Made by a program: the position numbers and the translations under genes. Under the pieces are notes generated by a model, which was not told where the DNA came from, made no database searches, and worked only from the letters and a program-made list of their open reading frames with translations. From a virus: DNA of 20,339 bases. The stretch is taken from positions 1 to 20,339 of the IMG/VR virus record IMGVR_UViG_3300028837_002785; one strand, written 5' to 3'. Positions 4,796-14,759 of the stretch are shown here, piece by piece; positions within the stretch are counted from its first letter, which is position 1; the number at the start of each line of letters is the position of its first letter.

Positions 4796-5443
4796 ATGAA
4801 TAATGGAAAGGACATTTATATCGTCGGTGGAGGACCAAGCCTCAAAAAATTCAATTTTGAGCGGTTAAAAAACAAGACAACAATAGCAACTAACATGGCT
4901 ATTTTTGATGTTCCTGAAGCAGATTATTTTATCACTGTTGATTATACTTTTTTGAAAAAGATGGGCAGTTTAACAGGTAAGTTTCTATCAAATAAAAGTT
5001 CCAAATTTTTCATTGTTAATTTAGCTAATAATTATCTCAAAGAAAGCAATGGCAATATTACAGATAATCGTTTTAATTGGGTTTATGATTTGTCTTTGTT
5101 TGATATAATCATAAAGTCCAGACAAGCATGCGGTTTTGGTTTTAGTTTTAATGACTTTCGTTCGGGTACAAATTCAGGGTATTGTGCCATTCAATTGGCA
5201 ATCCTTATGGGTTATACCAGAATTCATTTATTAGGTATTGATTTGACAGTAAGGGTAAGAACACATTATCATAGGAAGTATAGAAACAACCCTAAATTTG
5301 CAAGAGCATTAAATACGTATGTTTCTTATTTTATTAGCGGTATTGAACAGTTGAAAACATCTGGCGTTGAACTTATCAGTCGTAGTGATATTAGTTTATT
5401 AAACAAAACCATAGAACATATTCCATTAGATAGTTCATTATGA
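4796..5443 (+). CDS. DUF115 / MptE-like protein, possible Maf-type glycosyltransferase
   Basis: This 215-residue protein opens with a glycine-rich loop (YIVGGGPSLKKF, residues 8-19) and continues with TTIATNMAIF, ADYFITVDYTFL and SGYCAIQLAILMGYTRIHLLGID. That series is typical of the DUF115 / 6-hydroxymethylpterin pyrophosphokinase MptE-like superfamily. A histidine-containing HYHRKY follows, and the C-terminal LISRSDISLLN is also usual. The family includes Maf flagellin glycosyltransferases, which attach nonulosonic acids to protein, as well as true pterin kinases. With sugar-modifying genes all downstream, a glycosyltransferase-like role is more likely than a pterin one, but this is inference. 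An AGGGA ribosome site lies just before the ATG. It is the first gene of the cassette, and its stop overlaps the next start (ATGA). Confidence 0.7.
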   Translation: MNNGKDIYIVGGGPSLKKFNFERLKNKTTIATNMAIFDVPEADYFITVDYTFLKKMGSLTGKFLSNKSSKFFIVNLANNYLKESNGNITDNRFNWVYDLSLFDIIIKSRQACGFGFSFNDFRSGTNSGYCAIQLAILMGYTRIHLLGIDLTVRVRTHYHRKYRNNPKFARALNTYVSYFISGIEQLKTSGVELISRSDISLLNKTIEHIPLDSSL

Positions 5444-6717
5444 AAATTGCTTTGATATATTTACCACATCCACATCTTAAACAACCAGATGCACAAGCAC
5501 CAATTGGTCTTTTGTATTTAGCTGGTGTTTTGGAAAAATCAAATGATGTTAGTGTTTGTAATTTTTCTTCTTTATCAACCAACGAAGCTATAAAACAATT
5601 GCCAAATGTTGCTGTGTATGGTATTAGTGTAACGAGTATAGAATTACCTCAAGCAAATAAATTTGCTTATTTGATTAAGCAGCGTTTTCCTAATTGTGTT
5701 GTTATATTAGGAGGACCGGGAACTTATTCAAAAGAGTTTGTTGATTGGGATGTGATTGATTCTGTGTGTATAGGAGAAGGGGAAATCACTATAAAAGAAA
5801 TGTTGGAAGATATAAAAAAACAAAATCTCCAATCAGTATATTATGGAAAACCAGTTAAGGATTTGAATACAATATCTTTTCCTGCTCGTCACTATTTGAA
5901 AAAACAAGGTGGAAATATCTTTGCCTACAATAAAAAATACACCAAAGGAGAAAGTACAATTATTTTAACAAGCAGAGGATGTCCATATAAGTGCAGCTTT
6001 TGTGGCTCTCCTAAATTTACATTGTTATCTAAAGGTGTGAGGTACAGAACACCTAAGAATGTAATTGCTGAAATGAAAGAAGTAAAAGAAAAATATGGCA
6101 TAACACAATTCCGTTTTTCTGATGATATGTTTACTTCAAACAAAAAAAGACTTTTGAAACTTTGCTCACTGATAAAAAAATTAGGAGTTGTCTGGAGGAT
6201 AAGTTGCAGAGTAAAACCTTTTGATTATGAAATGGCTCAAGCATTGTTTGATAGTGGGTGTAAGGAAGTTTCTTTAGGAGTTGAAAGTTTTGATGATGAT
6301 GTTTTGAGTGCCTTAAATAAAGATACCACTGCAGAAGATAATGCAAAGGCTCTGTGGATATGCAAGGGTGTAGGAATAACAACAAGAGTCTTATTTATGA
6401 TTAGAACGCCGGGACAGACTGCTCAAACAGTAAATAAAAATATAGAATGGTTGAAAGAAGTACCCTATGACATAATAGCTTGTACATCTTTTGTTCCGAT
6501 TCCTGGTTCTGATATATGGGACAATCCTGATAAATACAACATCGAGATTTTGAATAAGGATTTAGATGATTACAATTTTTATTTTTTTGGCAAGTATGGT
6601 GAGAATGAACTTAAAGATATTATTAAAATTAAAGGACGTAGTTTAGCTGATTTTAATACAGAAAGTCAACACTTTAGAAATTATCTTAAAACTACAGGAA
6701 AATTGAATGAAGGATAA
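5440..6717 (+). CDS. Radical SAM enzyme with N-terminal B12-binding-like domain
   Basis: The protein has 425 residues. Residues 1-130 form a Rossmann-like domain of the cobalamin-binding type (APIGLLYLAGVLE, VILGGPGTYS, VCIGEGE), but I see no DxHxxG motif, so the lower-axial histidine of B12 proteins seems absent. Residues 181-188 hold the radical SAM CxxxCxxC motif (C181, C185, C188 in CPYKCSFC), which binds the 4Fe-4S cluster. FRFSDDMF, ISCRVK and VSLGVESFDDDVL are further strands of the radical SAM barrel. The family includes methyltransferases and ring-forming enzymes acting on unactivated carbons; the substrate here is unknown. ATGA coupling to the preceding DUF115-like gene and an 11-nt overlap with the next gene put it in the same pathway as the sugar genes. 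Confidence 0.85.
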   Translation: MKIALIYLPHPHLKQPDAQAPIGLLYLAGVLEKSNDVSVCNFSSLSTNEAIKQLPNVAVYGISVTSIELPQANKFAYLIKQRFPNCVVILGGPGTYSKEFVDWDVIDSVCIGEGEITIKEMLEDIKKQNLQSVYYGKPVKDLNTISFPARHYLKKQGGNIFAYNKKYTKGESTIILTSRGCPYKCSFCGSPKFTLLSKGVRYRTPKNVIAEMKEVKEKYGITQFRFSDDMFTSNKKRLLKLCSLIKKLGVVWRISCRVKPFDYEMAQALFDSGCKEVSLGVESFDDDVLSALNKDTTAEDNAKALWICKGVGITTRVLFMIRTPGQTAQTVNKNIEWLKEVPYDIIACTSFVPIPGSDIWDNPDKYNIEILNKDLDDYNFYFFGKYGENELKDIIKIKGRSLADFNTESQHFRNYLKTTGKLNEG

Positions 6718-7651
6718 TAATACAGTTTTAACTCAAACTCAAAGAGAACGAGACAATGAGTTGTGTGCTTTGTGTGATGTGTCTTTGGAAGAAGTAGAGA
6801 GCAATAAAATAGCAAGTCCAAAAACCATAATGATACACAAAGGAGAAAACATACCAGCAAGTGAAGAGGCAATGTCTAATTTGTATTCCTATCCTCAACA
6901 TTTAGATTGGGTAGGGTATTTAAGAACACTCATGTACACAAGTGTTTACAAACGCGGTGGTTTAATTTCTTTTCTTAAAAAACAAAAAGGAAAAAAGTGT
7001 TTAGATTATGGATGTGGCACTGCCACTCATTCTATTATACTCGGTGAAAATGGAAATGATATTAATATATTGGAAGTACAAGGTCAGATGCTTTTCTTTG
7101 CTATAAAAAGACTTCTGTTACATAACATACCTTCCAAACCATTTGAACATCAGGACATACTTCCATCTAATACATTTGATTTGGTGTTGTGTGTAGAAGT
7201 ATTAGAGCACGTGCATAGTCCCAAAAGAGTAATAGAATATGGTGGTTCTATTATTCTTGGAAATAAAGTAAGAATAAGACATAACGTTATCATCAGAAGC
7301 TGCACAGGAAAAATCGTAATAGATGATAATGTTGTTATTAATTATGGTTGTATTATTCATGGTTTGGGTGGCATTACAATAGGACATCATACAATGCTCA
7401 GTCCTAATTGTCAATTGTATGCTCAAAATCATGGCCTTGCAAAAACTAAATTGTTAAGCTCACAAAAGAATATAGGCAAAGGTATTCATATAGGGTTTGA
7501 TGTTTGGTTGGGAGCGAGTGTGATAGTGGTGGATGATGTTACAATAGAAAACGGTGCTGTTGTAGGAGCAGGTTCTGTTGTAACAAAAAACATACCATCT
7601 TATGAAATATGGGCTGGCAATCCAGCAAAAAAAATAGGAGTTAGAAAGTGA
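6707..7651 (+). CDS. Fusion of truncated SAM methyltransferase and hexapeptide acyltransferase
   Basis: Residues 1-176 look like the front of a class I SAM methyltransferase: motif I CLDYGCGTATHS (98-109), the acidic post-I strand (ILEVQ) and the motif IV region DLVLCVEVLEHVHSP (158-172). At about residue 177 the sequence changes directly into a left-handed beta-helix acyltransferase of the WbbJ/colanic-acid acetyltransferase type: repeated hexapeptides (IILGNKVRIRHNVII, IVIDDNVVI), catalytic-type His242 in AQNHG, and the terminal GAGSVVTKNIPSYEIWAGNPAKKIG. The back part of the methyltransferase (the usual LKPGG strand onward) and the N-terminal 50 or so residues of the acyltransferase are missing. 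The frame runs through without a stop. AGGA lies 8 nt before the ATG. The acetyl-transfer half may work; the methyl-transfer half is doubtful. Confidence 0.85.
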   Translation: MKDNNTVLTQTQRERDNELCALCDVSLEEVESNKIASPKTIMIHKGENIPASEEAMSNLYSYPQHLDWVGYLRTLMYTSVYKRGGLISFLKKQKGKKCLDYGCGTATHSIILGENGNDINILEVQGQMLFFAIKRLLLHNIPSKPFEHQDILPSNTFDLVLCVEVLEHVHSPKRVIEYGGSIILGNKVRIRHNVIIRSCTGKIVIDDNVVINYGCIIHGLGGITIGHHTMLSPNCQLYAQNHGLAKTKLLSSQKNIGKGIHIGFDVWLGASVIVVDDVTIENGAVVGAGSVVTKNIPSYEIWAGNPAKKIGVRK

Positions 7652-8547
7652 AAATAGTTTATTTTAGTGATAACTATACTTGGGGTGTGATGGGCACTAA
7701 ACGTTCTATATTTGAAGAAATGAAAAGAAGAGGACATGACATCTTATGGTATGATAAAAAAAAGATTACAAATATTTTGAAAATAGAGCAACAACATAAA
7801 CCGGAACAGATTTGGTTGGCTCATTCTGGTTTGCAATTACCTTCGTCTGTCAAAAAACAAATAAAAGCGACTGTTGTGGGATTTGGATTCAGTGACCCTT
7901 ACTACTTCAAACCAACACGATTAAACAGTTATGATATGTATGTAACCAATAATTGGAAAATTCAGCAACAGTATAAAAACTTTGGTTTTATTTTTTATAA
8001 TCCTACTGCTTGTGATGTTGCATTTCATAAAAATTTACACCTTCCCAAAAATACAGATATGTCTCTTATTGGCTGTGGAAGGCATCCAAGGTTTCCAAAC
8101 AAAAATGAAAGAATTGATATAATTAGTAAATTAAGGATTATTTTCAAAACAAAAACAATCAAAGTGTATGGCAGACGATGGAATACACATTCTAATAACT
8201 TTTCTCATATTCAAGGACTTGAATTCTTAAATGTCATTGGTTCTTCTATTATAGGATTAGACATTCAAGCAGTACACAGTCCTTTAGCTCATAGAATGTT
8301 TGAATATTTAGCATGTGGAACACCTATTATAACACGGAGTCGTGATGAGGTTTTTTTACACCTTGAAAATGGAAAGGAAGTAATAACATATGAAACTAAA
8401 TATGATTTAATTTCAAAATTAAAATACTATATGAATCATTTGGATGAGCTTGCTGATATTGCTAAAGCAGGATATATAAGAACAAGAAAAGAACATGATA
8501 TTAAAAATAGAATAAATCATTTGGAAAAGGTTTTGAAATTGAAATGA
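7648..8547 (+). CDS. CgeB-like GT-B glycosyltransferase
   Basis: The protein has 299 residues. It opens with MKIVYFSDNY and a TKRSIFEEMKRRGHDILWYD helix, which is the N-terminal Rossmann start of a GT-B enzyme. It ends with AVHSPLAHRMFEYLACGTPIITRSRDEV, the donor-nucleotide region seen in CgeB/YkvP-like proteins (Glyco_trans_1_2 family). It likely transfers a sugar from a nucleotide donor in the cytoplasm; donor and acceptor cannot be told. The start is GTG, sharing GTGA with the preceding stop, and GGAG lies 7-8 nt upstream. The end overlaps the next ATG as ATGA, so it sits in a coupled string with its neighbours. It is somewhat shorter than many CgeB proteins but has both Rossmann halves. 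Confidence 0.8.
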   Translation: MKIVYFSDNYTWGVMGTKRSIFEEMKRRGHDILWYDKKKITNILKIEQQHKPEQIWLAHSGLQLPSSVKKQIKATVVGFGFSDPYYFKPTRLNSYDMYVTNNWKIQQQYKNFGFIFYNPTACDVAFHKNLHLPKNTDMSLIGCGRHPRFPNKNERIDIISKLRIIFKTKTIKVYGRRWNTHSNNFSHIQGLEFLNVIGSSIIGLDIQAVHSPLAHRMFEYLACGTPIITRSRDEVFLHLENGKEVITYETKYDLISKLKYYMNHLDELADIAKAGYIRTRKEHDIKNRINHLEKVLKLK

Positions 8548-9350
8548 AAGTAACATTGCCTTTATTTAGCTATCCCAGAAAAGAATATCATGAAAGATAT
8601 GTACAGTATCTTATTAAAATATTTAGGTATGGCGGAGGAATTGTTTCTTTGAATGGTATTGATTATGATGGAAGGTTTATTTTTGAAGTAAATGGAAAAA
8701 AAGCATATATGGATTATTCCGACCATCCCAGTATAAATCCAAAAAGGGATGAGAGTATTCCATATTTCAAATTTCATTGTCATGAAAAATATTTAGCGTT
8801 ACCAAATATACATCCTTTTTCTCCCACCAGTTTTTATGAATGGGAAAGGTTTAGAAGATTAGAAAAACAAATTAAATACACTGCAAAAGGATATAAGATA
8901 ATAAATAAACAAAAACCTTATGGAAACGCTACAATCAGACGTAGAGAAGTTCGGAGTATATTAAAAAGAAAGTATGCAAATAATGTAGAGATAAAACCTG
9001 ATTCTGAACAAGTAATTTTTTGGAAAGATATAAATGATTGTTTAGTTTCTGTTTTCGTTCCGGGAGCTTACAATTTTATGTTAGACAGAGGACATATACA
9101 GTACATGGCTTTTGGGTGTTGTACTATTAGTCCTTTTCTTAAAGATGTTCTTCCTTACAACAGAAACATAATTCCTAATATTCATTATATACAGTGCCGT
9201 GATGATTATTCAGATTTGATAAATATTATTGAGTGGTGCAAACACAACAGACAAACGTGTATTGATATAGGAGCTAACGCAAAAAAATTATTTGACCAGA
9301 CTTCCAGACCATCTGTATTAGTAAAGTGGGTATTAAAATGCCTGAAATAA
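8544..9350 (+). CDS. Putative glycosyltransferase (GT-B / GT90-like)
   Basis: This 268-residue protein lacks a clear signature in its first 120 residues, which are rich in aromatic and basic residues. The C-terminal part reads MLDRGHIQYMAFGCCTISP, then NIIPNIHYIQCRDDYSDLINIIEW. This is the donor-site layout of GT-B enzymes related to CAP10/GT90 or CgeB: an acidic-basic pair, a small-residue turn at the place of the usual ACG, and a final helix after HYI. I infer a glycosyltransferase from this and from its neighbours. ATGA coupling joins it to the CgeB-like gene. Its last codons overlap the pyruvyl transferase gene by 13 nt. An alternative is another sugar-related GT-B fold protein. Confidence 0.6.
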   Translation: MKVTLPLFSYPRKEYHERYVQYLIKIFRYGGGIVSLNGIDYDGRFIFEVNGKKAYMDYSDHPSINPKRDESIPYFKFHCHEKYLALPNIHPFSPTSFYEWERFRRLEKQIKYTAKGYKIINKQKPYGNATIRRREVRSILKRKYANNVEIKPDSEQVIFWKDINDCLVSVFVPGAYNFMLDRGHIQYMAFGCCTISPFLKDVLPYNRNIIPNIHYIQCRDDYSDLINIIEWCKHNRQTCIDIGANAKKLFDQTSRPSVLVKWVLKCLK

Positions 9351-10027
9351 TTGTAAGAAAATGTCGTGTTCCTAATTTGGGTGATTCAATGAATGACAAT
9401 TTGCTTGAATTTATTGCCCAGAGGAAACTACCAACAATAAATCATCAGGTTAAAACTGATAAAACAGTTTTGATAGCTATTGGAAGCATTCTACAATGGG
9501 CAACACCAACAACATTGGTATGGGGTTCAGGTTTCATAACTGCCAAGTCATCTATTCATGCACAACCTAAAAAGATATGTGCTGTAAGAGGCCCATTAAG
9601 CAGAGAAAGAATTTTAACTTTGGGATTTACCTGTCCTGAAATATATGGTGACCCTGCTTTGCTTTATCCCTTGTACTATAAACCTAAAATTGCAAAAAAA
9701 TATAAGCTGGGCATTGTAGCTCATTACATAGATAGGCATAGTCTTTTATTCAAGCGTTTGTTAAAAGATAAATCTATTTTAGACATTAATGTAAAAGGTA
9801 ATGTGAATAAAACTGTAAATCAAATTTGCTCTTGTGAGAGAATAGTTTCCAGTTCTCTTCATGGTTTAATTGTTGCCGATGCTTATGGTATTCCTTCTGC
9901 GTGGATTAAGATAACAGACAAAGTGATAGGTGCTGGCTTTAAGTTTAGAGACTATTTTGCTTCTGTAGGCAGAACAGATATAGTTCCTTTAATTGTGAAT
10001 AATAAAACAACTACTAAAGATATGTAG
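9338..10027 (+). CDS. Polysaccharide pyruvyl transferase family protein
   Basis: The sequence begins with VRKCRVPNLGDSMNDNLLEF and continues with VLIAIGSILQW, LVWGSGFI, KKICAVRGPLSRERI, EIYGDPALLYPLYY, LGIVAHYID and IVSSSLHGLIVADAYGIPSAWI. This is the full motif series of the polysaccharide pyruvyl transferase family (ExoV/WcaK-like), which adds a pyruvate ketal from phosphoenolpyruvate to a glycan. I chose ATG 9338 over GTG 9326 because AGTGGG sits before it and it overlaps the upstream gene less; this gives 229 residues, short for the family. The C-terminus ends in a lysine- and threonine-rich NNKTTTKDM right where the broken front of the next gene begins, so the tail may have been changed by the same event. 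Confidence 0.85.
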   Translation: MPEIIVRKCRVPNLGDSMNDNLLEFIAQRKLPTINHQVKTDKTVLIAIGSILQWATPTTLVWGSGFITAKSSIHAQPKKICAVRGPLSRERILTLGFTCPEIYGDPALLYPLYYKPKIAKKYKLGIVAHYIDRHSLLFKRLLKDKSILDINVKGNVNKTVNQICSCERIVSSSLHGLIVADAYGIPSAWIKITDKVIGAGFKFRDYFASVGRTDIVPLIVNNKTTTKDM

Positions 10028-10049
10028 AGAGAAATTTTTAGAGGAAGCA

Positions 10050-10667
10050 TTGAAATGTGTAACACAACAGATGTACAAAGATATTCAAATAATAATTTAT
10101 GATGATGGTTCTGTTGATGGAACACAAAATATGATACAATGCTTTTCTTCATACTGCAATATTCCAATCTTATATAATAGGTCAGATAACAATAATGGAG
10201 TTGCTTTTGCTCGAAATAGATTATTAGAATTATGCAATACAGAGTACGCCTGTTGGTGGGATAGTGATGACTTGTGTAATATTTATCGCATACAAAAACA
10301 GATGAGACAAATTCAAAGAGGATTTGATGTGGTATTTACTGCATTTAGAAGTTTTGGGTCAGGGAGTAAACATAAAGCAATTCCAAACTGTGTAAGCATT
10401 CCCAAGAAACAAAGAACACCATACGCTTTTGCTTCTATGTTATTTAAGGCAGATAAAAATATCAAATTTAATGAAGCTAAAAAATTTGGAGGGGAGGATT
10501 GTGCATGGAGTGTTATGATGCAAAAGAATATAAAAACCAAACACATTCCAGAGATATTATATTTTGTACGTTATCATTCAAAAAGAATAGGTGTTGTTAA
10601 AAACAGAATTAGAAGACAGGATAAATCAAAAACTTATGCAGAAGTGGAGCGTAGATTATGTTCATAG
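10050..10667 (+). CDS. GT2-family glycosyltransferase, N-terminal strand missing
   Basis: The 205-residue frame has MYKDIQIIIYDDGSVDGTQ, NGVAFARNRLLELC, ACWWDSDDLCNIYRI (DSDD as the metal-binding DxD) and a late FGGEDCAWSVMM helix with its acidic pair, all typical of a GT2 (GT-A fold) transferase. The family normally starts with a strand like VSVIIPTYN followed by a REKFLEEAL helix. That helix is still encoded in the same frame at 10026-10049, before the first possible start (TTG 10050), but the strand that should precede it is gone: the frame runs back only to a TGA at 9996 and has no start codon there. AGAGGA lies 4 nt before the TTG. Missing the first nucleotide-binding strand, the product is probably inactive or impaired. 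Confidence 0.72.
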   Translation: MKCVTQQMYKDIQIIIYDDGSVDGTQNMIQCFSSYCNIPILYNRSDNNNGVAFARNRLLELCNTEYACWWDSDDLCNIYRIQKQMRQIQRGFDVVFTAFRSFGSGSKHKAIPNCVSIPKKQRTPYAFASMLFKADKNIKFNEAKKFGGEDCAWSVMMQKNIKTKHIPEILYFVRYHSKRIGVVKNRIRRQDKSKTYAEVERRLCS

Positions 10668-11263
10668 TAGTTGGGTATTACACAAGAAATACTTTATATG
10701 AAGCAAGCTCAAAAGTTTTAATCAGGTCGTTAGAACGTCATGGAATACCATACTGTATTGAGGGCATAGACACTATTGGTTCATGGTACAAAAATACAGG
10801 ATACAAACCTACATTCCTTTTAAGAATGATAGACAAGTTTCCTGATTGTAGTATTGTATATGTAGATGTGGACGCTGAGTTTTTAGCTTATCCAAAGTTA
10901 TTTGATAACTGGTCAACTTTGACTCATGTTAATGTTGGTGTTTATGTTTTTGATAGAAGTAATTATAGACGGAGTGCAAAAGGAAAAGAAGTATTAAGCG
11001 GTACTATCTTTTTGAATAACAATAAAGAGGTTCGTAATATATTATTAAAATGGCAAAAATTACAAAATTCAAAACCAAACACATGGGACCAAAAAAATCT
11101 TGAACACGTGTTAAATGGAAGGTTCTCTTTATTGCCGCCTGAGTACTGTAAAATATTTGACAGAATGGAAAAAGTAACAGAGCCTGTTATAGTTCATTAC
11201 CAGCATAGCAGGAAAGTGAAGAATAAACATAAGCCATTATCAATAACACAGAAAGTACAATAG
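10658..11263 (+). CDS. GT-A type nucleotide-sugar transferase
   Basis: This 201-residue protein starts with a strand (FIVVGYYTRNTLYEASS) and has IVYVDVDAEF at residues 66-75; D70 and D72 form the DxD motif that binds metal and nucleotide sugar in GT-A enzymes. GTIFLNNNKEVRNILLKW and TWDQKNLEHVL follow, as in the nucleotide-diphospho-sugar transferase family, where a WDQ motif lies in the second half. A C-terminal VIVHYQHSRKV provides a conserved-looking histidine. The ATG overlaps the GT2 stop by 10 nt and has GGAG about 8 nt upstream. It is the last gene of the + strand block, followed at once by a terminator. Donor and acceptor are unknown. Confidence 0.75.
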   Translation: MFIVVGYYTRNTLYEASSKVLIRSLERHGIPYCIEGIDTIGSWYKNTGYKPTFLLRMIDKFPDCSIVYVDVDAEFLAYPKLFDNWSTLTHVNVGVYVFDRSNYRRSAKGKEVLSGTIFLNNNKEVRNILLKWQKLQNSKPNTWDQKNLEHVLNGRFSLLPPEYCKIFDRMEKVTEPVIVHYQHSRKVKNKHKPLSITQKVQ

Positions 11264-11489: not shown

Positions 11490-11921
11490 TCATATTCCTA
11501 AACTGGTTGTGTGAATTGTTACTGGATGCTTTAGATTTTCAAGACAAAGAGGTATCATCCATTTTATATCATTCATACAATCAGTTAAACTCGACAGGTC
11601 ACTTAATAAAACCACTTTCGTTTTTTGCTTCGATAGTTTTAGATTCAGTGTGCTATATGTCGTGGCGTTTTGTATAAAAATAAATACAGTACCACCCGGA
11701 CATATCATAGTAATACGAGGAGTCCATACACATGCATAAGACATGCCTACTTCTTCATGGGCTTCCCTTATCATGGAATGGTTTGGTTCTTCATTCTCAA
11801 TAACATGACCTCCTATACCATTCCATCTTTTTTCCATCCAAGGACAAGAAGCCTGTTATAGCAACACACTCTTGTTTTTTCTATTAAAAATAAAACCTAA
11901 AACATAATGTTCTCGTTTCAT
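11490..11921 (-). pseudogene. Nudix hydrolase gene interrupted by in-frame TAA
   Basis: From ATG 11921, which overlaps the preceding stop as ATGA, the frame reads MKREHYVLGFIFNRKNKSVLL, then TAA at 11858-11856, then QASCPWMEKRWNGIGGHVIE without any frame change. The full Nudix box follows, matching Gx5Ex7REUxEExGU exactly (GHVIENE, then REAHEEVGM). The region before the TAA is the normal first strand of a Nudix domain and the region after it the usual linker, so one ancestral 142-residue gene is broken by one codon. Nudix enzymes hydrolyse nucleoside diphosphates linked to another group, for example oxidised dNTPs or ADP-ribose. A shorter product from ATG 11837 would keep the box but lose strand 1, and it lacks a clear ribosome site. 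TAA ends several other genes here, so recoding is unlikely. Confidence 0.85.
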
Positions 11922-12514
11922 AACTCAACTACCTTTCCTATCATAAATTCAGGTTCATGCGTAACGATTAAAAACTGAACACCAAAATCTTTTGCTAATT
12001 TATATATCATATTTTTTACTGCTGGTCTGTATTTTTTAGAGACATGATGAAATGGTTCATCCATTACAATAAGTTTTCTTTGTTTTGGTTTGGTAGCTAT
12101 TATGCAAGCCATTCGTAAAACAAAGGCAGCTACATTAATTACTCCTCCTGAATCCTCGTCTGTTGGTTTCTCTATTGCCACTCCATTTTTAATCAGGATT
12201 AAATTAGCTTCTGTTGTACCACGTTTGCGTACAATCTTTATTTGAAAGTCATAAACATCATCTGTAAATACAGAATGCAAGCAAGAAGTAACCACACCAG
12301 CAATCCGAGCATGTGCTTGTTGTTGAATAGTTTGAGCAACAACTTGAGCTTTGGACCATATTATGTTTACATCCTTCAAATACCTGTGAGCTTTTTTATA
12401 AGCTTTGCGTTCTCGTTTCAGTGATTCTTCTGCGGAGAATACTTGTTGGTTTAATTGGTCTATTTGATATTGTATTGTTTCAAGATTCAAGTTGGTCTTT
12501 CCATTTTCTTTCAA
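11918..12514 (-). CDS. C-terminal half of a split Rad50/SbcC-type ATPase
   Basis: The protein has 198 residues. Residues 12-70 are coiled coil. Then come DSGGVINVAAFVLRMA (121-136, the ABC-type signature), KLIVMDEPF (147-155, Walker B with catalytic Glu153) and LIVTHEPEF (182-190, H-loop His185). These are the C-terminal ATPase elements of Rad50/SbcC/gp46, with no Walker A. That is supplied by the separate gene at 13839-14759. The start is non-AUG: TTG 12514, or TTG 12490, which has GGAAAG just upstream. It overlaps the small coiled-coil gene by up to 35 nt in the +1 frame, so its translation probably depends on that gene. Its stop overlaps the Nudix start as ATGA. It is expected to act with the Mre11-like nuclease at 12725-13645 on DNA ends. 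Confidence 0.85.
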   Translation of the reverse strand: MKENGKTNLNLETIQYQIDQLNQQVFSAEESLKRERKAYKKAHRYLKDVNIIWSKAQVVAQTIQQQAHARIAGVVTSCLHSVFTDDVYDFQIKIVRKRGTTEANLILIKNGVAIEKPTDEDSGGVINVAAFVLRMACIIATKPKQRKLIVMDEPFHHVSKKYRPAVKNMIYKLAKDFGVQFLIVTHEPEFMIGKVVEL

Positions 12515-12728
12515 ACTTTTTCAATTTGATAGTAGCTTTATTGTGTAGTTTTTTAACTTTAGATTTCAAACGAGACAGCAAAGCAACACCATCATTAATA
12601 GTTTCACAGTTAAACTTCTGAGCTAAATCTTCTTTGGCATGTTCCAAAGCACCTTCGGCCATATCTACTTGACGTCGGGCTTTGTCAACTTGTTTACGGT
12701 ACTGAAGAACTTTATCAAGATTGCTCAT
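12480..12728 (-). CDS. Small coiled-coil protein between Mre11-like and Rad50 C-half genes
   Basis: This 82-residue protein is charged and almost wholly helical: KVLQYRKQVDKARRQVDMAE, then KFNCETINDGVALLSRL, then KVKKLHNKATIKLKKFERKW. It has one cysteine (NCETI) and no CxxC. It starts with ATG overlapping the Mre11-like stop (ATGA) and runs into the Rad50 C-half gene. It may supply part of the returning arm of the coiled coil that is missing from the split Rad50, or act as a small accessory subunit. Sequence alone does not decide between these. Confidence 0.75.
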   Translation of the reverse strand: MSNLDKVLQYRKQVDKARRQVDMAEGALEHAKEDLAQKFNCETINDGVALLSRLKSKVKKLHNKATIKLKKFERKWKDQLES

Positions 12729-13645
12729 TTTTTATTTTCCATAGCACTTAATAATATTTTCTTTTGTTGTTTTGAAGCATTGATGAGTAATTGTCGGAAA
12801 GAACTTTCTACATCTAACATATCCTGTCCCAATTTACCAAGAGATTTAAGGAGTCCTGATATATCTACGTTTGTTATGCTTTGTGCCGATTCCATTTCTT
12901 TGGCATCTTCAATGTCTAAATATTTGTCTTTTGAAATATCTAATTTATATCTCAGCACTTCACCATGTTCACGGAGTAGCCAAATACTTGGATGCCATTG
13001 CAGGTCTGTTGATTTCCTGCGTATGATACTACCACAGTTAATGAACAGAGTGTCTGCTATGGATGTACGGAAAGGAATATGGTTGTCACCACTAAAGATA
13101 CAATTGTAATTTCTAAATTCAGTACGTGCAGAACCTATGCGTTCATATTCATTTATCTGACCTTTATGACGAGCTATGGGAATCCAATTATACTGATGAA
13201 TGATTGCTATTTTAAGTTTTGAAAATTGACCACTCACTTTGAAAGGAGTACATTGTTGTCCGTAGTTAAATCCTTTTATCCATAATTCAGATGTTTGTAA
13301 ACCAGAAGGTACCGGACATATAACATGAGACATTACTAATGTTTGATAAGCGGACCTGTGGATTTGTTGAATATCATGTTCTGGTAAGTCGTGTTGTCCT
13401 GCAATACAATACATGGGAGGCATATTATCTATGAGCCAATTGATTAGTTCGGGAGGACTGTTCCATCGGTCACATATATCACCACAGCAAAACACAGGAC
13501 ATTTATGTGCTTTTTGTATTTCTTTTATTTCATCAAGCGGTCTTTTCATTGCTGCAAACCAGTCAGGTTCGGCAGAACGTAGTGGTGGTGGGTTGAGTGA
13601 AAAATGTGGGTCACTAAAAAATATTCCTATTATTTTACTTTTCAT
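12725..13645 (-). CDS. Mre11/SbcD-like metallophosphoesterase nuclease
   Basis: This 306-residue protein carries the calcineurin-type metal-site motifs in order: FFSDPHF (D12, H14), CCGDICDRW (D56, D59), IAGQHDLP (GNHD position, Q84, H85, D86), AIIHQYNW (H150) and FSGDNHIPF (GHxH position, D187, H189). Two ligands differ from textbook Mre11 (Asn to Gln and the first His of GHxH to Asp). I have seen such forms in phage relatives, and both can still bind metal. A C-terminal helical tail (about 240-306) would be the Rad50-binding part. With Rad50 it should form the end-processing nuclease, the counterpart of T4 gp47 or SbcD. It lies between the two Rad50-half genes. The start overlaps the upstream stop (ATGA) and GGTG precedes it. 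Confidence 0.88.
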   Translation of the reverse strand: MKSKIIGIFFSDPHFSLNPPPLRSAEPDWFAAMKRPLDEIKEIQKAHKCPVFCCGDICDRWNSPPELINWLIDNMPPMYCIAGQHDLPEHDIQQIHRSAYQTLVMSHVICPVPSGLQTSELWIKGFNYGQQCTPFKVSGQFSKLKIAIIHQYNWIPIARHKGQINEYERIGSARTEFRNYNCIFSGDNHIPFRTSIADTLFINCGSIIRRKSTDLQWHPSIWLLREHGEVLRYKLDISKDKYLDIEDAKEMESAQSITNVDISGLLKSLGKLGQDMLDVESSFRQLLINASKQQKKILLSAMENKK

Positions 13646-13857
13646 TTTGGCACCTTTATTGTTTGAGTGTATATAGTATCTACAGGATAATTTTTTGCTG
13701 ATGGCATCTCACATAAATAAATGGGAAGTCCTATAAGGTCTTTATCTGGATGTTTTGTAATAACCCAAATTTTGTGTTCTTTGTGCGTGTGTTCTTTAGA
13801 ACGAATAACAACTTTACATTCTGTTTCTTCTATAATTTTCATGTTATTTTTAGACAT
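13642..13857 (-). CDS. Small protein of unknown function in the Mre11-Rad50 operon
   Basis: I do not recognise this 71-residue protein. It is beta-rich and charged (CKVVIRSKEHTHKEHKIWVI, then LIGLPIYLCEMP). I chose ATG 13857 over an upstream in-frame GTG because GGTG lies 6 nt before it; that ribosome site is made of the zinc-hook codons of the preceding gene, which it overlaps by 19 nt. Its stop overlaps the Mre11-like start as ATGA, so it is a genuine operon member. A role near the nuclease complex is only guessed from position. Confidence 0.65.
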   Translation of the reverse strand: MSKNNMKIIEETECKVVIRSKEHTHKEHKIWVITKHPDKDLIGLPIYLCEMPSAKNYPVDTIYTQTIKVPK

Positions 13858-14759
13858 AACGGACACCTTTTACCAAATGCTTTTTTATAGTTTAATTCTG
13901 CTGTTTTCAAATTCTTTTTGTTAGTTATTAAATTTTGTTTAGCTTCTTTTATATTGTCTAAAGCAACGGATAAATCTTCAATCTGTTCTTCTATATTTAT
14001 TATCGTATCGTGTAAAGATTCTAATGTTTGTAATTCTTGTTCTTGTGTTTCATTACTCGATTGTAATTTATCCACAACAGCTTGCTGCTTTGTTATTTCA
14101 TTAATCAAATTTTTTAGCTGTTCTACTTGTGTTTCATATTTGGTAGTTTTTTCATCTAATGAACATATTACTCCCCATTCTTGTTTCAGTTCTTCTACAA
14201 AAGATAATTCAGCAGCTTGTTGTTTGGCTTCTTTCCTGCGGTCTTTACACACACTTAATATAGATTTAGCAGAACGTGCTTCCGATTGTAAATTGGAAAG
14301 TGTTCTATCAATTAAATCAAGATTTACTATTTGGTTTAATCGTTTGCTAACTTGTCCCGGAGTCAAAGCAAACCAAAACAAAGGACCTTCACCATGCGGC
14401 ATTTCCTGTTGTTTTTGGAAGTTTATATTTGTGAGATTAAATAACTTAGATACTGAGTCAGGTACTTTGCTACCAAAAGCTTCCATCTTCCTGTCATCTA
14501 CATAGTAGGCATTGATACTTTTACTTCGTTCTTTTTTGATTTTATGTTTACCTATGCGAACAGTGACTGTGGATTTCTTAGTTCCCCATTTAATATGATT
14601 GGTGCCAGCAGGTTGATTTAATGCTATCCATCGAAGTGCTCTTAATATCCAGCTTTTTCCTGTGTAGCTTTCTCCTGTAATACAAGTCACATAACGGTCA
14701 AGTTTTATAAAAACTTTTTTGTTACTTCCAAAATTGCGAATGGAAATACTATTAATCAT
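13839..14759 (-). CDS. N-terminal half of a split Rad50/SbcC-type ATPase, ending at the zinc hook
   Basis: The protein has 306 residues. INSISIRNFGSNKKVFI (2-18) is the usual first strands of a Rad50/RecF ATPase. ITGESYTGKSW (27-37) is Walker A (Lys35). INFQKQQEMPHG (112-123) is the Q-loop region. Residues 140-290 form a long coiled coil. The chain ends with KRCPLCLKIT: C299 and C302 form the CPLC zinc-hook motif through which Rad50 dimers join. In whole Rad50 proteins the hook lies mid-chain and the coil turns back; here a stop follows four residues after it. Walker B and the signature motif are in the gene at 11918-12514. The start overlaps the KOW-like gene's stop as ATGA. The half is well formed, so the split looks like a real gene arrangement and not damage. 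Confidence 0.87.
   Translation of the reverse strand: MINSISIRNFGSNKKVFIKLDRYVTCITGESYTGKSWILRALRWIALNQPAGTNHIKWGTKKSTVTVRIGKHKIKKERSKSINAYYVDDRKMEAFGSKVPDSVSKLFNLTNINFQKQQEMPHGEGPLFWFALTPGQVSKRLNQIVNLDLIDRTLSNLQSEARSAKSILSVCKDRRKEAKQQAAELSFVEELKQEWGVICSLDEKTTKYETQVEQLKNLINEITKQQAVVDKLQSSNETQEQELQTLESLHDTIINIEEQIEDLSVALDNIKEAKQNLITNKKNLKTAELNYKKAFGKRCPLCLKIT

Follow-up and report, generated by a model that had tools for sequence, protein, structure and literature searches.

A Mre11-Rad50-type system of phages and Bacillota with Rad50 encoded in two halves separated at the zinc hook

Described Mre11-Rad50 architectures and the split locus

In the described Mre11-Rad50 systems, such as archaeal Rad50, E. 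coli SbcCD and T4 gp46/gp47, the two lobes of the ATP-binding cassette (ABC) head of Rad50/SbcC lie in one polypeptide and are joined by an antiparallel coiled coil with a zinc hook at its apex. Few parts of these complexes are as poorly understood as the zinc hook and the long coil. Here we describe a viral locus in the IMG/VR record IMGVR_UViG_3300028837_002785 (20,339 bp; this whole stretch is the window, and all statements on this virus cover it) that shares with Rad50/SbcC and Mre11/SbcD the ABC head motifs, a helical arm, a CPxC hook, an Mre11-like partner gene and a neighbourhood of recombination genes. It differs in that Rad50 is made as two chains, cut just past the hook, and is accompanied by a putative extra small subunit, a small coil protein encoded beside the Rad50 halves that we call K. 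Judged from sequence comparisons and structure models, this is very probably a working Mre11-Rad50-type DNA-end-processing complex, with Rad50 built from separate chains, the distal arm and the hook carried by the N-half alone, and K as an arm-associated subunit. The split design is common and not an oddity of this phage. It is apparently a widespread and undescribed way of building Mre11-Rad50; our literature search, which covered open-licence papers, found no account of a split Rad50/SbcC.

A likeness in solved structures is the two-chain catalytic domain of P. furiosus Rad50 (1f2t and 3qkr), where the N- and C-terminal ABC lobes are separate polypeptides within one head. These solved heads (1f2t A/B, 3qkr A/B) indicate that a two-chain head is feasible. 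That form we take to be a laboratory construct from which the coil was omitted, whereas the split described here is natural, and the N chain still carries both the hook and a long arm. Aeh1 nrdA and T4 39/60 are phage examples of genes that homing endonucleases have split and whose products remain functional as two chains. In both cases a single-chain enzyme would have become a set of interacting subunits, but the Rad50 split is widespread and many lineages have no endonuclease at the site. The Mre11/Rad50 fusions of Mimivirus R555 and its relatives (PMC3175470) present another gene architecture of the same enzyme: there Mre11 is joined to Rad50, while here Rad50 itself is divided. The fusions reported in Anaerostipes and in Bacillus phage 0305phi8-36, which are without one P-loop segment (PMC3175470), might be split members.

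In the window all five genes of the system lie on the minus strand, in the order Rad50-like N-half, 74-residue open reading frame (ORF), Mre11-like gene, K and C-half, with overlapping gene ends. An earlier note on this DNA had described an N-half that stops four residues past a CPLC motif and a C-half that is a separate gene 1.3 kb downstream, and the reading frames agree: the N-half C-terminus reads KRCPLCLKIT and then stops, and 1.33 kb separate this stop from the C-half start, with the Mre11-like gene and two small ORFs in between. The C-half has no ATG start and begins at TTG 12514 or TTG 12490, within the end of the K gene. The features are as follows, with helices and predicted local distance difference test (pLDDT) values taken from AlphaFold2 (AF2) models.

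13839..14759, minus strand: Rad50-like N-half, 306 residues, with the ABC N-lobe (Walker A, Q-loop), a long helical arm and the terminal CPLC hook.
14652..14675, minus strand: Walker A GESYTGKS, residues 29-36; G29, G34 and K35 are invariant in 22/22 N-halves.
13875..14360, minus strand: helical arm, residues 134-295 (162 residues), modelled as helices 134-234 and 239-295; block pLDDT 46-86.
13854..13865, minus strand: CPLC zinc-hook motif, residues 299-302, followed by LKIT and the stop; both Cys are invariant in 22/22 N-halves.
13642..13866, minus strand: 74-residue ORF starting with GTG; it overlaps both the end of the N-half and the start of Mre11.
12725..13645, minus strand: Mre11/SbcD-like metallophosphoesterase, 306 residues (Pfam Metallophos_2, 1.6e-8).
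12480..12728, minus strand: small coil protein K, 82 residues, member of a conserved family adjoining split Rad50 halves.
11918..12514, minus strand: Rad50-like C-half, up to 198 residues; an arm helix, then the ABC C-lobe (signature, Walker B, H-loop).
12269..12484, minus strand: arm helix of the C-half, residues 11-82 (72 residues); block pLDDT 72-93.
12143..12151, minus strand: ABC signature S122-G-G; relatives carry G-G-G.
12056..12076, minus strand: Walker B (LIVMDE) with D152-E153, invariant in 22/22.
11957..11959, minus strand: H-loop His186 (TH), invariant in 22/22.

Since the N-half has no Walker B and the C-half no Walker A, neither can be an ATPase alone, and the full catalytic set is present only with both chains taken together. 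The N-half contains Walker A and the Q-loop in a Rad50-related N-terminal ABC lobe: it matches Pfam AAA_23 (7e-9), a 22-member profile matches Rad50 5f3w (6.7e-12), and the top Foldseek match of its AF2 model is Mre11-Rad50 3av0_B. The C-half contains the signature, Walker B and H-loop in a Rad50-related C-terminal lobe, with matches to phrog_15167 (3.8e-22) and, for the 22-member profile, to Rad50 3qkr_B (5e-13). The usual signature Ser of Rad50/SbcC is replaced by Gly in most split members; it is present in this virus and is Gly in 21 relatives. Because G29, G34, K35, the Q-loop Q117 (22/22 aligned systems), D152, E153, H186 and both hook Cys are invariant across 22 systems, the split system appears, as far as conservation can tell, to be under selection as an ATPase.

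We infer the following assembly, zinc bridging and nuclease activity. The N-half, with Walker A, the Q-loop, the whole distal arm and CPxC, and the C-half, with the signature, Walker B and H-loop, would join via the proximal arm into one ABC head. Two such heads, closing on ATP, would regulate the Mre11-like nuclease, a single zinc would join two N-half tips through their CPxC motifs, and K would be a dedicated extra subunit bound to the arm or the hook.

Conservation of the split in phages and Bacillota

A small number of phage relatives were found by tblastn of phage records, and other members via an alignment of the Bacillota forms; single-protein scans of IMG/VR with this virus's own halves gave no matches, and six C-halves, when aligned, proved too divergent to be used for scanning. 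Distant phages carry the same split at 18-31% identity. Microcystis phage Mvi-JY20 encodes an N-half (ending in CSQC plus 14 residues), Mre11, a 94-residue coil and a C-half, and thus has exactly the order that the earlier note had suggested looking for. In Bacillus phage vB_BboS-125 a 471-residue N-half ending CPLCEQTHKGGGC is followed by an AP2-domain gene, a 78-residue coil, the C-half and an unannotated Mre11 ORF. In the 485-kb phage LR745208 an N-half ending CPVCGSLPGTKCSKPSS and Mre11 come first, then a nuclease-like gene and the coil, and last a clamp-like gene and the C-half. The N-half and coil are adjacent in Tunturi_5, with the C-half 108 kb off, and in Magritte the pieces are scattered over the genome. 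The Magritte N-half is gp155; gp247 was rejected for this role as it resembles a sliding clamp, and a match in phage G (H4/H5) was rejected as a plain ABC transporter. The gene between the N-half and K in vB_BboS-125 (L001:7407-7979, AP2 domain) and at a second locus (L027:7062-7601) is possibly a mobile endonuclease.

A genome scan and an IMG/VR scan yielded 33 Bacillota loci, some of them near-copies, and N, K, C and Mre11 are separate genes in 33/33. Their order there is N, K, C, Mre11. The placement of Mre11 between the halves, claimed for this virus, is correct here and recurs in Mvi-JY20, and it is one of several arrangements. A stand-alone C-half was found in about 63 of 398 Bacillota genomes from a phylum-wide draw, roughly one in six (67 matched, from which three coil-less fusions and one RecN-like protein were left out). 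The N-half, C-half and K families of Bacillota correspond to phrog_16465 ('exonuclease'), phrog_15167 ('ATPase') and phrog_18563 (unknown function); the PHROG annotations that we saw link these families neither to one another nor to split Rad50. The split system suggests a function for these three phage families, which occur in roughly one in six of the sampled Bacillota genomes.

In all split loci the lobes are encoded by separate genes, as in this virus. Relatives with one continuous gene, which would have left a frame break in this assembly alone, did not turn up, and the idea of a working multi-subunit variant gains support from the recurrence of the split in distant phages and in 33/33 Bacillota loci, with the key residues invariant in 22/22. 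In a tree of C-lobes the split members group with weak support (83/22) and coil-less fusions are nested among them (86/87), with long branches that make finer claims unsafe. These fusions, from three Bacillota genomes (L095:2764-4818, L096:4652-6754 and L097:4583-6670), are proteins of ~690 residues with the layout Mre11, Rad50 N-lobe, short linker, C-lobe, and have neither coil nor CxxC; in the tree they are placed as if re-fused after loss of the arm.

Zinc hook, arm and small coil protein

Like the arm of Rad50/SbcC, the arm of the N-half carries a CxxC hook; the terminal CPxC is invariant in 22 N-halves. What follows the motif varies. Long tails (17-28 residues) are poor in Cys/His (4 vs 11.5 expected) and resemble the start of a return helix. 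Among short tails, 20 of the 24 distinct ones contain Cys/His, and the count of 38 against 4.8 expected includes related sequences that are not independent. These extra residues often form HxH, GGGC or CC (N-halves L001 and L024-L058), and the long-tailed clostridial forms are largely without them. The tail of this virus, CPLC and four residues, fits neither type. A four-residue CXXC hook peptide is already sufficient for a Zn(Cys2)2 dimer (PMC5093744).

The terminal CPxC could instead be a zinc knuckle closed within one chain by downstream Cys/His, with a role in docking or as a structural cap at the end. This is the alternative suggested by the Cys/His enrichment of the short tails and their depletion in the long ones, and we regard it as unlikely. 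Ordinary hook sequences may also have a His close by, in this virus, in Tunturi_5 and in two other short tails there is nothing more to act as a ligand, and the long-tailed forms have the appearance of an ordinary hook that runs into the beginning of a return helix.

The earlier note had proposed that the returning arm of the coil comes from the 82-residue coil protein and the C-half, so that K and the C-half helix would together complete a classical antiparallel Rad50 coil as its returning strand, the hook sitting at the apex. In this virus the lengths nearly fit (an N-arm of 162 residues against 82 for K plus 72 for the C-half helix), and K sits between N and C in most operons. Comparison across the family does not support the proposal. 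Counted from a fixed point at the arm base, the N-arm measures 143-147 residues in this virus and Mvi-JY20, about 249, 296 or 342-343 in most Bacillota and 238-317 in the remaining members, so that the family ranges over 143-343 residues (clostridial lengths were taken from the alignment, as the N-half ORFs there are cut by short flanks). K stays near 78 residues (mostly 75-97) and the C-arm near 84 throughout. With near-constant lengths, K and the C-arm cannot span the longer N-arms; if K belonged to the return strand, arm length and K length should correlate positively, and they do not (r = -0.50). Furthermore, the K alignment has a conserved central break, consensus GVTP, suggesting a helical hairpin and not one straight strand. 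We therefore consider a return strand made of K and the C-half improbable, somewhat more so than the zinc knuckle. The AF2 model of the N-half has a predicted template modelling score (pTM) of 0.39, too low to tell whether helix 239-295 folds back.

Successive arm-length classes in Bacillota lie ~47 residues apart, and hydrophobicity autocorrelation peaks at lag 47, with z of 9.0 and 7.0 in the better-sampled classes and 5.2 in the smallest. The autocorrelation peaks again at 94, and each 47-residue unit has one break enriched in Pro/Gly. Taken together, the length classes and the lag-47 signal point to a modular arm on one chain in these Bacillota members. Unlike those of Rad50/SbcC, such arms change in 47-residue steps without a matching return strand. 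Tentatively, this could be a distinct Rad50 design: one strand would form the whole distal arm from 47-residue units, being lengthened or shortened by whole units, and would find its pairing partner in the arm of the other subunit, not in a return strand; it would end in a zinc clasp, and K would be obligatory and occur only where there is an arm. With its chain cut at the hook, a small subunit that stays constant, discrete arm lengths and arm-less relatives, the system offers a natural series for probing arm length, return strand and hook.

K was located in 33/33 and 29/29 split loci. It was not found at E<=10 around T4 gp46, E. coli SbcC, the JWF single-chain Rad50 or the three coil-less Mre11-Rad50 fusions. 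Its presence with split loci, and not with single-chain or coil-less forms, ties K to the arm, in a comparison that covers few forms and related, non-independent lineages, and in which coil-rich small proteins match easily. At 15-26% identity, the K proteins of the most distant phages are likely homologous.

Two further explanations fare worse. The halves could be separate SMC-like ATPases with different partners, and both the profile and the fold searches do also match SMC, RecF and RecN heads, the AF2 models of the halves matching Mre11-Rad50 and SMC heads alike. However, each half lacks one of the Walker motifs, the halves co-occur with Mre11 and a CPxC hook, the arm ends in CxxC instead of a hinge, and Rad50 is the top profile match of both halves in PDB searches, above SMC, RecN and RecF; this explanation is very improbable. 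That the locus is a recently broken, decaying single-chain gene, divided by inserted genes or an assembly error, is hardly credible: insertions often split phage genes, and in vB_BboS-125 and Brevibacillus an AP2-domain gene does separate N from K, but the split site and intact catalytic residues are common to dozens of divergent systems and the split C-lobes cluster in the tree.

Several observations nevertheless weigh against a split complex with a zinc-bridged, N-half-only arm as we propose it. At least one lineage can do without the hook, since a terminal CxxC is missing from the Magritte N-half. The extra Cys/His after CPxC in many short-tailed forms could complete a single-chain zinc site. 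The arm of this virus, which is short, shows no 47-residue repeat. Finally, the metal motifs of its Mre11 read DPH, GD, GQHD, H and GDNH, while most relatives inspected are canonical (DxH, GD, GNHD, H, GHxH); with GQHD and GDNH standing where GNHD and GHxH are expected, its nuclease could be altered.

Mre11-like protein and genomic surroundings

An Mre11 gene lies near the Rad50-like ATPase in 33/33 Bacillota loci and in this virus. The Mre11 of Mvi-JY20 is also of the GQHD and GDxH type, and the Mre11 at L009:4633-5592 has these motifs instead of GNHD and GHxH. The Mre11-like ORF of vB_BboS-125 (L001:9247-10227, 326 residues, SbcD-like phrog_100 at 3e-21) is missing from the record annotation. 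For the 74-residue ORF at 13642..13866 we found no convincing family match, and no counterpart at the matching place in Mvi-JY20.

Genes adjoining the locus match a PD-(D/E)XK nuclease, a 5'-3' exonuclease and a RecA-like protein, a recombination/replication setting that is consistent with a role of the complex in these processes in the phage. Directly downstream of the C-half, an ORF at 11490-11837 (minus strand) contains, as read by eye, a Nudix-box-like motif, GGHVIENEEPNHSMIREAHEEVGM. Further along, at 4796-11263, between tail-like genes and the replication module, lie ORFs whose translations look glycosyltransferase-like, radical-SAM-like and methyltransferase/acyltransferase-like.

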